From: a virus
Direction: 5' to 3' (one strand)
IMG/VR virus record: IMGVR_UViG_3300036760_000758
Span: 1 to 23,268 of that record
Length of the DNA stretch: 23,268 nt
Part shown: positions 1,878 to 9,561 of the stretch, piece by piece
Layout of the letters: each line of letters starts with the position of its first letter
Position numbering within the stretch: position 1 is the stretch's first letter
Program-made: the position numbers and the translations under genes
Notes under the pieces: model-generated
Told to the model about the DNA's origin: nothing
What the model saw: the letters and a program-made list of their open reading frames with translations, nothing else
Databases searched by the model: none

Positions 1878-2105
1878 CTATTCAGCCCGGCGGACCGCCG
1901 CGTTGTGAACTTCGACCGCTCTGATGAGATCGGCCTCATACTTGAGGAAAGCCTGCTGTCTCCGCTCTTCCTGTTCCCGCATCTCCCGGCGCGCCTCATC
2001 AGAGACGCCCGGTTGCTTCATCTGGCATTTTGGGCAGAGGCCCCGATACCACTCGTGATCCGGGTACCAGACATGCTGGTTCCGGTCAAAACATCGTAGT
2101 TTCAT
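1878..2105 (-). CDS. Small CxxC protein with C-terminal charged helix
   Basis: This 75-residue gene starts at ATG 2105-2103, after AAAAAGGAGCCGAA. The N-terminal third is rich in aromatic residues and contains C5, H11, H17, C24 and C27 (CFDRNQHVWYPDHEWYRG, then LCPKC). That could hold one zinc ion, although the spacing is not a family I can name. From about residue 32 it is a charged amphipathic helix (EARREMREQEERRQQAFLKYEADLIRAVE). It is the first gene after the predicted self-cleaving ribozyme; the cut would leave an RNA whose 5' end lies 53 bases before this start codon. The 14 bases covering its ribosome site are identical to those before the 116-residue gene. Function unknown. Confidence 0.65.
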   Translation of the reverse strand: MKLRCFDRNQHVWYPDHEWYRGLCPKCQMKQPGVSDEARREMREQEERRQQAFLKYEADLIRAVEVHNAAVRRAE

Positions 2106-2136: not shown

Positions 2137-2226
2137 GGAGGGAAGGGAGCGTTGCTCCGACGCCCGTGCGGGCGTTTCGTCCCTTGCTCCAGGGACTCAT
2201 CGGGGAGTGAGTGCTACCGTCCCTCC
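2137..2226 (-). ncRNA. Type I hammerhead ribozyme candidate inside the leftward operon
   Basis: Read on the minus strand, this 90-base stretch folds into a full hammerhead. Stem I outer part pairs 2226-2220 with 2143-2137 (7 bp). A middle part pairs GG(T)AGC at 2218-2213 with GCTCC at 2150-2146. The inner part pairs CTCC at 2207-2204 with GGAG at 2158-2155. The core reads CCGATGA (2203-2197), then stem II of 6 bp (2196-2191 with 2184-2179, loop GGAGCA), then GAAA (2178-2175), then stem III of 6 bp (2175-2170 with 2165-2160, loop GCAC), then the cleavage triplet GTC (2161-2159). The predicted cut is between 2159 and 2158. All invariant bases of the family consensus (CUGANGA, GAAA, UH) are present except position 4, which is C instead of U. 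Stem I is open, which makes it type I. It lies between two genes of one operon, with its 5' arm covering the last codons and stop of the 116-residue gene. Confidence 0.85.
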
Positions 2227-2564
2227 ATTTCCCTTCGGACCTTCTCACGCAGGTCCGAAGTCCATGCTCGTCGCTCGACCACGAGCGCCCAAAAGCGCTC
2301 ACTAGACTGCGCCCATTGCAAGGCCAGGCTGGCTTCGCGCACCAGCCCCTGTGCTTTTTCCAGGGCGATCTGCGCCCGGCCCGCCGGGAGTTGCGCGGTG
2401 GCGTCGGCGATCTTGCCGTCACACCACAACTGCTCCACCATTTTGGCGTACTCGTCACATGCCGTGTCGATGCCTTTTTCTGTCGCCCAGTTCCAGGGCG
2501 ACTGCCAAGCGGCGGTCCCGAACTGCCCGCCGATACTGGCGAGATAAGTTTCAGTCATATTCAT
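2214..2564 (-). CDS. Hypothetical 116-residue helical protein
   Basis: ATG 2564-2562 overlaps the stop of the previous gene (ATGA) and follows AAAAAGGAGCAAC, so the first ATG is preferred over a second one two codons on. The protein is mostly helical: an N-terminal Trp-rich part (GTAAWQSPWNWATEKGIDTA), then long helices (AQIALEKAQGLVREASLALQWAQ) and a basic end (SDLREKVRREMEGR). No signal peptide, membrane span or metal site is visible. The final codons and stop form the 5' arm of the predicted hammerhead ribozyme. RNA folding and translation of this gene's end may therefore compete: a ribosome finishing here would melt stem I. Function unknown. Confidence 0.6.
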   Translation of the reverse strand: MNMTETYLASIGGQFGTAAWQSPWNWATEKGIDTACDEYAKMVEQLWCDGKIADATAQLPAGRAQIALEKAQGLVREASLALQWAQSSERFWALVVERRAWTSDLREKVRREMEGR

Positions 2565-4236: not shown

Positions 4237-4908
4237 ATGCCACTGAAGGGAGCCTGCAAGGTTTGTGTTCACCCAGACATCGTTTTTATTAACCGGCAGC
4301 TCCTCGACCCGACAATTTCAATACGCCAAGTTTCCCAGCATTACAAATTCTCGACAACGACAACGCTGAAACATAAGACAAGCTGTATACCTCATGCCTT
4401 GGCACGCATTGAGCGCAGCGCCCTTACGAATGCCGTCCTGGCCCTAAAAGGAGCCCTGGTAGCAAAGCAGCAGCGCCTGGAGGCCATCGACGACGCGTTC
4501 GCGCGCCTACGACGTGTGTGGGACGAACGAGCGGCCGACCCAGAGCTGCAAAACGTCCCCGGCGGGAAGACCGGCATCGTGGTTAAGAGGCTGAAAGCAT
4601 TGGGCGGCGGCCAGCACATGCAGATCGTCGAGGAGTACGAGATCGACACCGATTCCATTGACCAATACCGTCGTCTCGTCGAGCACGCCGCCAAGGAGAT
4701 GGGCGACTTCGGGGCGAAAGATCAGGTCAACGGGCACGGAGTGAGCTTGGTTTTCATCCCTCACGCGCCGCCAGGTGCGTCCCAGCGAGCGCCGGAAGCC
4801 ATGCGGACCATCGACGCGGCGCCGCATCACGTCAAGGCGCTGGAGGCGAGCGCACCGCCGGCAGAAATGCCTATCGAGGACGTTCCGGAGGACATCATCG
4901 AGGGGTGA
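4237..4908 (+). CDS. Cys/His plus helix-turn-helix protein, putative small terminase-like
   Basis: A 223-residue protein with ATG 4237 preceded by a close GGAG. The first 55 residues contain CKVCVHPDIVFINRQLLDP, then SIRQVSQHYKFSTTTTLKH and KTSCIPHAL. That is a short Cys-x2-Cys-x-His element, a helix-turn-helix, and a second Cys/His pair, a pattern (CxxCxHPxxxxINxxLL, SxRxVAxxYxxSxxxLxRHK) seen in many phage proteins encoded near packaging genes. Residues about 56-110 form a helical, coiled-coil-like segment. Residues 125-155 are acidic, and the tail (after about 180) is Pro/Ala/Glu-rich. The next plus-strand genes are a small protein and TerL, so a role as the DNA-recognising small terminase or packaging regulator is a reasonable inference. 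It is not a typical TerS sequence, and a plain transcription regulator remains possible. Confidence 0.6.
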   Translation: MPLKGACKVCVHPDIVFINRQLLDPTISIRQVSQHYKFSTTTTLKHKTSCIPHALARIERSALTNAVLALKGALVAKQQRLEAIDDAFARLRRVWDERAADPELQNVPGGKTGIVVKRLKALGGGQHMQIVEEYEIDTDSIDQYRRLVEHAAKEMGDFGAKDQVNGHGVSLVFIPHAPPGASQRAPEAMRTIDAAPHHVKALEASAPPAEMPIEDVPEDIIEG

Positions 4909-6585: not shown

Positions 6586-9561
6586 GTGGCCAACGCACCG
6601 AAGATCCTGACTCCACGGCAGATGGTGGAGAAGTACGGGAACCCGCATCTGTTCAAGATCCAGGGGAGGGACGGGACGCTTGCTTGGGAAGCGCAGGCGG
6701 GCATGCAGGAGCGGCTGTTCCAGCTTTCCGAGACGGGGCCGCCGGAAACGCAGGCCGACGAGATCCTGATTGGCGGAATACGCGGACCCGGGAAGTCCGC
6801 TGGACTCTTGGCATGGCTGTCGGTGCCGGTGTGGAACCCGAAGTACGTGGGGTTGCTCGTAAGGTATTCGGCAGAGGCGATGAAGGAAACGATCGAGGAG
6901 GCGTGGGATCTCTACCGGAAGATGGGAGCGAGGAAGCGGGCGCGGCCGACGGAGTTTCACTTTCCGAGCGAATGGGCTGGTGGGGCGATCATCTACACGG
7001 GGCACTTCAAGGACGAGCGATCGCTTGAGGATGTGCGCGGGCATCAGTATCAGCGTATTGGGATTGAGGAGCTGTGCCAGATCCCGTCGTTCTCGATGTA
7101 CACGCAGCTTGCGGGGGCGAACAGAACGACGATAGAGGGGTTGCCGGCGAAGGTCTGCTCGACGGCAAACCCGGACGGACCGGGAAATTGTGTTCCATAC
7201 GGGGATGTTCTGACCCCTGGCGGATGGAAGCCGATCGAGTCGTTTGTTGTGGGCGACCCGGTTTATACGGTCTTGGCGGATGGAAGCCTACAGGAGACGA
7301 CGGTCGATCAGGTTCACCAAAGTTGGCACGACGGCGATATCTGTTCGGTGAACATGCGCGGCTTCCACCTAGCCTGTACGCCGAATCACAGAGTAGCCAA
7401 GTTAAGGGGGACCAGGGACAATAAGCACGGCTTGTTCAGTTTGGTCCAGTTTAAGGAATTGCCGGGGCAAGCGCAGATTCTGAGAACCGTAAAGTGGCAA
7501 GGTAGCAGACCGTCAAACTTCATCCTCCCGGCAAAGTTCGAGAAAACTCAAAAGAGAACGCCAACAGTCAAGCAGCCGGACGGGATGGACTCCAGAACGT
7601 TCTTCAGTTTCATGGGATGGTTTCTTTCGGAAGGCAACACGAACGTTAGAGACAAAGGGTTTGGAATTTCTCAAAAGAAGCCGGACGGAAAAGTAAAACT
7701 GCAAGCCGTGCTCGACGCGGCTGGATTTCATGGTGGTTGGCACGGAGGGATCTCGTTTGTCGTCTATTCGGAGAAGTGGTGGCAGTACTTACGCCAGTTT
7801 GGGAAGGCTGGCGATAAGCACGTCCCTACATGGATGAAGAATGCCGACCGCGAGCATTTAAAGTTGCTGTTTGAGGCTTTGATGGATGGCGACGGGCACA
7901 TGCAAAGTTCGGAGACTTCCGGTAGCTACTACACAGTCTCAAAGAGACTTGCCGACGACGTGAGCGAAATCGCCGTGAAGCTTGGCTATCACGTGACGGG
8001 CATGAACCGGATACGCCAGCTATCAACAAACACTCAGTATTGCGTGTATTTCAAAGAGACCGGCGGTCCAGCGATCGAGTTTCAGACTGGCAATCACGTT
8101 TACGATGTTAAGACCTGCGTGAAACGCAAGCTGGCGGTGGTGAAGGAGAAGTATAGCGGGCCGGTGTACTGTATCGGGATTGAAGGGACCCACAGCTTTG
8201 TTATCAGGCAAAAATGCAGCGTTTGGGTAAGTGGCAATTCTTGGGTCAAGAAACACTTCATTGACGTATACTCCGGGGGGACGAAGATCGAGCCGGGAAC
8301 GCCTTTCATCGACCCGGTGACGAAGCGGGTCCGGGTGTTCATCCGGGGCGTCGTTGGCGAGAACTTCGCGCTGCACAGCAAGGACCCTGGGTATTACGAC
8401 CGTCTGCGGATGAACCCGCCGCACATCGTGAAGGCGTGGATCGACGGCGACTGGGATGCGAGCGCATCGCAGGTATTCGAGGAGTGGCGGCCGAACGGGC
8501 CGCTGCCGGCGGACCCGCCCGAGCCGGCGTGGGCGCGGCATGTGATTGCGAGCAGGCCGGTCGTTCCGTGGGCGCACAGGTGGGCATCGTGCGACTGGGG
8601 GTATTCGCACCACGCGGCTTGCCATTGGGCGGCGATCGGGGAGGATAAGCGGATCCATGTGACCGATGAGCTGGTGGCGCGCAAGCATGAGCCGGACCGG
8701 CTGGGGGCGGAATGGGCGAAGGTGACGGCGCCGATGCTGGAGGGAATGGAGCCGGAGCACCACATCACGCTCTACTTTTCGCACGAGGCGTTCAGGAATA
8801 AGACGACGAGCGAGCGGACGATCGGGGACATGTTCATGCTCGGGGTGGAGCGGATTCTGGGGCCTGGGTCCGTTTTTATGATGAGGCACACGGACGAAGA
8901 GAAACAGCTGAAGACGAAGAATCCGGAGGCGGCGCTGGAGCTGCTGCTCGCGAGGCGGCGGACGCTTGGGAAGCGGCTGCGGGTGACGATCCGGGTGAAC
9001 AACCCCGATCGCGTGGCGGGGTTGGCCTACGCGCATACGCTGTTCCGGTGGAAGGTGCTGGAGGATCCGCCGAAAGCGGACATGGACTACGCGTATGCGC
9101 TGTTACAAGAGCCGAACGGGCATCTGAAGTTCGAGAAGTATATGCGGCTGTTCGACGCGGTTACGCCGGAGGTGTTGCCGGGCGTGGTGATCCACGACAG
9201 GTGCAAGGAGCTGATCGAGTGCATCCCGAAGTTGCAGCCGGACCCGGACAGGTTGGAAGATAATTTGAAGTTCCACGGGGACATGATGGCGGTGGGCGAC
9301 GATCCATGGGAGTCGTTCCGGTCGCTGTGCATGGGCTTCAAGGACGTGGAGAACCGGAAGCCGGCGCGGGTGCTGTTCGCGGAGACGGTGCAGAAGTTCG
9401 TCAAGAGCGGGGACGACTTCAACACGGTCGTGCAGGTGGGACGGTTCACGGCGGCGAAACAGGCGCACGAGCGGAAACAATTGCAGGGGGACTTGTTTTT
9501 GGAGTACGCTTGCATTGATGAGATACGGAACGATTCGGATATATATTCAGAACCGGGGTAG
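6586..9561 (+). CDS. Terminase large subunit (TerL) precursor interrupted by an intein
   Basis: The 991-residue precursor would splice to a 641-residue TerL, the packaging motor ATPase and headful or cos nuclease that docks on the portal. The N-extein (1-201) holds the Walker A GGIRGPGKSAG (about 63-73), the hydrophobic Walker B strand ending in acids YQRIGIEEL (about 155-163), and the coupling motif CSTANPDGPG (191-200). The intein begins at the next Cys after N201. The C-extein (from S552) resumes with WVKKHF, as expected after TANPxGPG in uninterrupted relatives. It carries the nuclease domain with the first catalytic acid in ASCDWGYSH (D670 of the precursor, D320 after splicing) and a late HGDMMAVGDD segment. 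Start is GTG 6586 with only a distant AGGGA; the next Met is residue 13. It heads the structural genes. The spliced length is slightly above the usual 450-600. Confidence 0.9.
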   Translation: MANAPKILTPRQMVEKYGNPHLFKIQGRDGTLAWEAQAGMQERLFQLSETGPPETQADEILIGGIRGPGKSAGLLAWLSVPVWNPKYVGLLVRYSAEAMKETIEEAWDLYRKMGARKRARPTEFHFPSEWAGGAIIYTGHFKDERSLEDVRGHQYQRIGIEELCQIPSFSMYTQLAGANRTTIEGLPAKVCSTANPDGPGNCVPYGDVLTPGGWKPIESFVVGDPVYTVLADGSLQETTVDQVHQSWHDGDICSVNMRGFHLACTPNHRVAKLRGTRDNKHGLFSLVQFKELPGQAQILRTVKWQGSRPSNFILPAKFEKTQKRTPTVKQPDGMDSRTFFSFMGWFLSEGNTNVRDKGFGISQKKPDGKVKLQAVLDAAGFHGGWHGGISFVVYSEKWWQYLRQFGKAGDKHVPTWMKNADREHLKLLFEALMDGDGHMQSSETSGSYYTVSKRLADDVSEIAVKLGYHVTGMNRIRQLSTNTQYCVYFKETGGPAIEFQTGNHVYDVKTCVKRKLAVVKEKYSGPVYCIGIEGTHSFVIRQKCSVWVSGNSWVKKHFIDVYSGGTKIEPGTPFIDPVTKRVRVFIRGVVGENFALHSKDPGYYDRLRMNPPHIVKAWIDGDWDASASQVFEEWRPNGPLPADPPEPAWARHVIASRPVVPWAHRWASCDWGYSHHAACHWAAIGEDKRIHVTDELVARKHEPDRLGAEWAKVTAPMLEGMEPEHHITLYFSHEAFRNKTTSERTIGDMFMLGVERILGPGSVFMMRHTDEEKQLKTKNPEAALELLLARRRTLGKRLRVTIRVNNPDRVAGLAYAHTLFRWKVLEDPPKADMDYAYALLQEPNGHLKFEKYMRLFDAVTPEVLPGVVIHDRCKELIECIPKLQPDPDRLEDNLKFHGDMMAVGDDPWESFRSLCMGFKDVENRKPARVLFAETVQKFVKSGDDFNTVVQVGRFTAAKQAHERKQLQGDLFLEYACIDEIRNDSDIYSEPG
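7189..8238 (+). mobile_element. Intein with LAGLIDADG homing endonuclease in TerL
   Basis: A 350-residue in-frame insertion between N201 and S552 of the precursor. Splicing blocks are visible in order: block A starting at Cys1 (CVPYGDVLTPGGWKPIESF), block B ACTPNHRVAK with T64 and H67, block F VYCIGIEGTHSFV with H335, and block G ending SVWVSGN with N350, followed by Ser as +1 residue. The endonuclease has both LAGLIDADG helices, FMGWFLSEG (catalytic-type acid E148) and FEALMDGDG (D235), with the block D segment KHVPTWMK between them. Both acids being present suggests homing activity is intact. The penultimate residue is Gly where His is usual. The insertion sits right after the TerL coupling motif, a conserved site where homing endonucleases gain most. 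A+T content inside is visibly higher than in the exteins. Confidence 0.92.

Follow-up and report, generated by a model that had tools for sequence, protein, structure and literature searches.

The window analysed here, the 23,268-nt IMG/VR virus record IMGVR_UViG_3300036760_000758, is a fragment of a tailed phage, and its minus strand carries, between two small genes encoding 116 and 75 amino acids, an element which on its sequence is a type I hammerhead ribozyme with C in place of U at core position 4. With a probability of roughly 0.83, we consider that this hammerhead, with its natural C4 core, cuts the operon RNA between the two cistrons and so separates the stability and the translation of two messages. 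The U4 uridine turn is regarded as an almost invariant feature of hammerheads. The C4 core is best read, from comparison of sequences, as a functional alternative that has been maintained, as opposed to random decay, since it recurs in IMG/VR with complete helices, its stem I pairs covary, it is constant across diverged phages and the sister hammerheads of multi-copy genomes retain U4. Measured against the open-licence literature, outside which earlier reports may exist, the recurrent phage C4 class and the placement of phage hammerheads on stop codons are new. The intercistronic self-cleavage role has already been proposed for prophage hammerheads (Perreault 2011, PMC3088659), and a U4C viroid hammerhead is also on record.

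Fold and covariance match of the window hammerhead

The unconstrained minimum free energy (MFE) fold of the minus strand from 2230 to 2130 is exactly the hammerhead, at -45.5 kcal/mol (z -3.55), and equally stable structures were found in 0 of 200 shuffles. Three helices surround the core, with loops closing stems II and III and stem I left open, as given by the MFE fold, the Rfam alignment and the covariation of the C4 class. Between 2203 and 2159, the core contains C3, G5, A6, G8, A9, G12, A13 and A14 together with the A15.1-U16.1 pair, and position 17, where the cleavage site calls for H (not G), is C (2159); the hammerhead consensus is departed from only at core position 4, where C replaces the expected U. 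The initial annotation of this DNA had proposed such a minus-strand type I hammerhead between the 116- and 75-residue genes, with 6-bp stems II and III and C4 as the sole departure. The Rfam match, the MFE fold, the covariation across 23 C4 sequences and the intercistronic position of hammerheads elsewhere agree with this proposal, its location was confirmed, both stems are present (stem III when A15.1-U16.1 is counted), and the substitution is confirmed by the sequence and recurrent in IMG/VR. Regarding stem I, a long interrupted helix had been described with an internal loop facing loop II, an arrangement linked to the fast tertiary contact of natural hammerheads. The helix is indeed predicted by the fold, with a 4-bp proximal part, a 5x4 internal loop and then a long interrupted distal part. 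For the contact, GGAGC of loop II is able to pair with GCUCC at 2150-2146, a 5-nt match with a chance probability of 0.087, and the hit set shows no excess of such matches. As U4 is the consensus and is not exclusive (the infectious U4C viroid RNA is classed as a hammerhead, and 29 distinct complete C4 structures were found here), the window element is filed as a C4 variant.

The suggested search with the Rfam covariance models returned a match at a relaxed threshold. RF00163, the type I hammerhead model, is the top match among all 4,227 families, with 19.2 bits and an E value of 0.061 for the whole library on a 451-base stretch, and with an E value of 7.4e-4 when RF00163 alone is run over the window. 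Other candidates were rejected: the match to Rfam Pab19 (18.6 bits, gathering score 55) is a chance match to stems II and III, an intrinsic terminator was ruled out by the lack of a T run after stem III, and a register shift, in which U4 would be missing and stem I would gain an extra pair, was ruled out because the pair beside C3 covaries in the normal register.

C4 as a recurrent class of phage hammerheads

IMG/VR was scanned with patterns in which the core apart from the tested position and the first three stem II pairs were held fixed; as N7 was fixed as U together with part of stem II, the frequencies apply to that subset. These patterns returned 40 stretches with C4, at least 120 with U4, four with A4 and G4 together and nine with any substitution of G5. 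Complete structures were obtained for 29 of the 36 distinct C4 matches (20 of type I and nine of type III) and for 108 of the 126 U4 matches listed, compared with 0 of 4 for A4/G4 and 2 of 8 distinct G5 substitutions. When stem III was chosen blind to stem I, a stem I of at least 4 bp was present in 18 of 21 C4 matches, whereas permuting the 3' partners among the C4 loci gave a mean of 1.4 and a maximum of 7 out of 21. When 23 C4 sequences are aligned without their loops, pairing is seen in 90.7% of cells, vs 62% after shuffling and no more than 42% after sliding. The covariation score reaches 0.69, vs 0.15 after shuffling and no more than 0.15 after sliding, with 0 of 500 shuffles attaining 0.69. 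Pair counts were made on loop-free excerpts of equal length, because MAFFT misaligned stem III on the raw sequences. Since stems II and III were partly selected for pairing, the unselected covariation evidence is that of stem I, whose pairs covary strongly while C4 stays constant. The compensatory changes that the initial annotation had proposed to seek in related phages do occur within the C4 class; a search for sisters of the window phage itself found none, and conservation is hence argued from the class and not from the window locus.

C4 is also fixed across diverged relatives, with 78% identity over 958 nt between loci L014 and L026, 79% between L026 and L029, 66% nearby for L005 and L039 and 69% for L011 and L028. 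Two further differences from U4 copies were noted, in related sequences and after several comparisons: C at position 2.1 occurs in 8 of 21 C4 matches vs 10 of the 83 U4 matches listed (p 0.009), and type III accounts for 9 of 29 C4 structures vs 16 of the 108 U4 structures listed (p 0.06). A scan of genome contigs with a narrower pattern gave ten C4 matches: type III copies, mainly in Patescibacteria metagenome-assembled genomes, a single copy of type I (L179) and several that lack hammerhead helices. Three bacterial genomes (G022, G023 and G024; loci L176, L177 and L178), two of them titled Paceibacterota/Kaiserbacteria, carry C4 and U4 cores on the same strand and contig, the C4 core upstream and the U4 core 0.9-4.6 kb downstream, of type III where complete. 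In one phage (L006:3581-5502), a C4 type I hammerhead shares 2 kb of a single strand with a type II hammerhead and a Twister-P5 ribozyme.

Several points weigh against an active C4 hammerhead in the window. The uridine turn of the hammerhead core is formed by U4, the proximal stem I has merely 4 bp, Watson-Crick contacts between loop II and stem I were no commoner in the hit set than in permuted pairs, and no relative of the window phage was found for a same-locus comparison. In addition, the RF00163 score of 19.2 bits falls short of the 34 bits set as gathering score. The same holds for the closest cultured U4 relatives (24.8 bits for SCYZ1, or no match), and none of the type I C4 copies across 18 other C4 loci reaches the gathering score, so that the cut-off appears insensitive for phage copies; as standard covariance cut-offs miss C4 copies, phage hammerheads are undercounted. 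A mutagenesis study reports that substitutions in CUGA are strongly damaging, with low activity (PMC9901934), and the U4C viroid hammerhead (Ambros and Flores 1998, as cited in PMC3088659) is described there as considerably less active in vitro and sufficiently active in vivo. These viroid data, together with a strong selection against a hammerhead in phage MS2 that gave 0 U4 mutants among 50 plaques (PMC4075628), agree with C4 as a functional alternative.

One could ask if C4 is a recent hit in a formerly active U4 ribozyme that is now inactive or nearly so, as C4 is in the minority (6 of 60 distinct copies of one identical stem-II family), at most one copy per record examined has it, the others being U4, and U4C reduces in vitro activity according to the viroid work cited in PMC3088659. 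Decay should, however, strike every position, yet complete structures were absent for A4 and G4 and numbered at most two for G5 substitutions; with the pairing of all three helices intact and C4 constant across diverged relatives, we regard this explanation as unlikely. Still less probable is a structured intergenic RNA that adopts the hammerhead fold and does not cut, such as a 3' stabiliser or a protein-binding element: its strong fold and a gap filled by the hammerhead element alone would suit such a role, but the catalytic G5, G8 and G12 and the A15.1-U16.1 pair, like C17, which is retained in 18 of the 21 C4 matches having stem III, would be needless in a scaffold.

That three hairpins and a core-like string met by chance within GC-rich DNA is hardly credible. 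High G+C does favour stable stems, and the descriptor scan that found a single hammerhead in the window also found one match across 60 Markov-randomised windows; against this, the same fold, core and post-stop location occur in unrelated phages, with covariation far above permutation, and chance is refuted at the level of the class. C4 as a functional alternative is what its retention through divergence points to, given that A4 and G4 were never seen here in complete form, and the class supplies natural sequences for asking how a core without U4 works.

Stop codons and the proposed cut

For type I copies, we looked for open frames of at least 45 codons ending within -40 to +12 nt of C3, with control points 300 nt upstream. 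This placement was found for 13 of 20 C4 copies vs 2 of 17 control points (p 0.002) and for 61 of the 88 U4 matches listed vs 18 of 75 control points (p 9e-9), related sequences among the matches making both p-values optimistic. Among the 61 stop-placed U4 cases, the core U4-G5-A6 is itself the stop codon in 17. This stop is lost with the C4 substitution; in C4 copies the frame ends ahead of the core or, in one locus (L016), on U7-G8-A9. Downstream starts with a ribosome site lie mostly 20-60 nt beyond the cut in phage type I hammerheads. The window copy obeys this rule, with a stop 10 nt before C3 and a start 53 nt past the cut, and an otherwise unrelated phage (L001) has the identical layout with C4. 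The overlap of the 5' arm with the upstream stop, pointed out in the initial annotation, is borne out by the UAG lying inside stem I, and a stop codon at the hammerhead proves to be a tendency shared by phage type I hammerheads in general. The spacing of 53 bases given there between cut and ribosome site has to be corrected, as these 53 nt separate the cut from the start codon (2105), and GGAG begins 44 nt past the cut. The core AUG was tested as the start of the downstream gene, and reading frames were without clear bias. Many phages are multi-copy, with up to eight or nine pattern matches. Four such phages, L144 (G019), L059 (G033), L083 (G032) and L145 (G020), have five to nine core matches, mostly within ~2-6 kb, where a backward-pattern control gave 0 to 1 per record.

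Transcribed with the operon, the hammerhead would fold and cut the RNA after C17, a cleavage that we infer from the sequence. Stem III, a GC-rich hairpin bearing a 2',3'-cyclic phosphate, would form the end of the upstream mRNA just past its own stop codon, the downstream mRNA would begin with a 5'-OH and a 53-nt leader, and the two messages would become separate in stability and translation. Both kinds of ends are expected to resist the usual entry routes of bacterial RNA decay. The stop-codon placement, including the use of the core UGA as a stop, suggests that translation termination and self-cleavage are directly linked. Judging from the distances, a ribosome terminating at the upstream stop may cover the core and delay its folding and, by analogy with the viroid data, C4 may slow cutting and act as a rate setting. 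A tentative extension, which we rather doubt, is that C4 hammerheads are deliberately slowed, ribosome-gated cutters which, placed on the upstream stop codon, would fold and cut only after terminating ribosomes clear, whereas U4 copies in the same genome would cut at once; the cut would then respond to translation and set how long two phage genes share a message.

Known hammerheads and gene neighbourhood

Type I hammerheads located between genes, like that of the window, are found in Pseudomonas phages tf (PaP3-like) and SCYZ1 and in Caulobacter phage S2B. SCYZ1 has stretches, GUCCC..AGGGACGAAACGCCC, nearly identical to the window, and the S2B hammerhead adjoins the upstream stop codon as in the window; all three carry U4, whereas the window carries C4. 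In S2B, a cultured phage, the annotated gene gp062c (L229:975-1290) terminates on the core's own UGA (U4-G5-A6), a stop that C4 would abolish. The clustered prophage hammerheads of Perreault et al. were proposed to cut long phage transcripts into gene-length mRNAs, a processing to which we liken that of the window, and tandem arrays were cleaved in vitro (PMC3088659). C4 is absent from the phage core variants which that paper names in its text (such as A6C in Bcep176), U4C being cited there for the viroid only, and its main text makes no mention of stop codons. The U4C viroid hammerhead, as cited there, has the same core substitution as the window; it belongs to a viroid RNA and is cited as a single variant, whereas the window element is intercistronic, in a DNA phage, and part of a recurrent class. 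HHphage of haloviruses HF1/HF2 is likewise a variant-core viral hammerhead and lies shortly ahead of an early gene; the 5' end of a transcript has been mapped close to its cut (PMC3088659). It differs from the window element by an insertion near C3 and a high-salt host. In the cultured Streptomyces phage Janus (L232:42-2258), six type II hammerhead matches lie in 2.4 kb of a cluster of small genes, most of them in the spaces that separate annotated genes. Four of the six exceed the Rfam gathering score, and near-serial self-cutting is predicted.

Packaging and structural open reading frames run along the plus strand of the window, and small genes of no known family run divergently from them on the minus strand, which makes it plausible that these form an early operon. 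The series is tightly packed, with an ATGA overlap at 2564/2561 and a spacing of 11 nt from the 75-aa gene to the 85-aa gene. Its sole wide gap, of 108 nt, separates the 116- and 75-aa genes and is occupied by the hammerhead, which reaches into the last codons of the 116-aa gene, and by nothing else. Coordinates are collected below.

Table 1. Features of the hammerhead locus, in window coordinates.
Feature	Position	Strand	Basis or remark
Entire type I hammerhead, including distal stem I	2137..2226	-	sequence, MFE fold, Rfam RF00163 match 2207-2155, descriptor scan
Core strand CCGAUGA (C3, C4 replacing U4, G5, A6, U7, G8, A9)	2197..2203	-	sequence; C4 recurrence with A4, G4 and G5 controls
Stem-loop II, GUCCCU 2196-2191 / AGGGAC 2184-2179, 6 bp, loop GGAGCA	2179..2196	-	fold; covariation in relatives
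G12 A13 A14	2178-2176	-	sequence
Stem-loop III, ACGCCC / GGGCGU, loop GCAC, 6 bp including A15.1-U16.1	2175-2170 / 2165-2160	-	fold; covariation
Predicted cleavage site after C17 (2159); 5'-OH RNA from 2158	2158..2159	-	hammerhead cleavage rule on sequence
Proximal stem I, 4 bp, CUCC / GGAG	2207-2204 / 2158-2155	-	fold, stem I test, covariation
Distal stem I, GGAGGGA (in last codons of upstream gene) / UCCCUCC	2226-2220 / 2143-2137	-	fold
Upstream gene, 116 aa, no known family	2214..2564	-	stop UAG 2216-2214 inside stem I; its end is 10 nt ahead of C3
Downstream gene, 75 aa, no known family	1878..2105	-	AAGGAG 2116-2111; start 53 nt past cut

Pfam and PHROG gave no family for either flanking gene, searching IMG/VR for proteins related to the flanking 116-aa product or to the 223-aa protein encoded at 4237-4908 found none, and no DNA match to the window was found among phages; the hammerhead locus is consequently not comparable in sister phages. 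Elsewhere in the window, the large terminase gene (6586-9561) is interrupted by a LAGLIDADG-containing insert, which is probably an intein.
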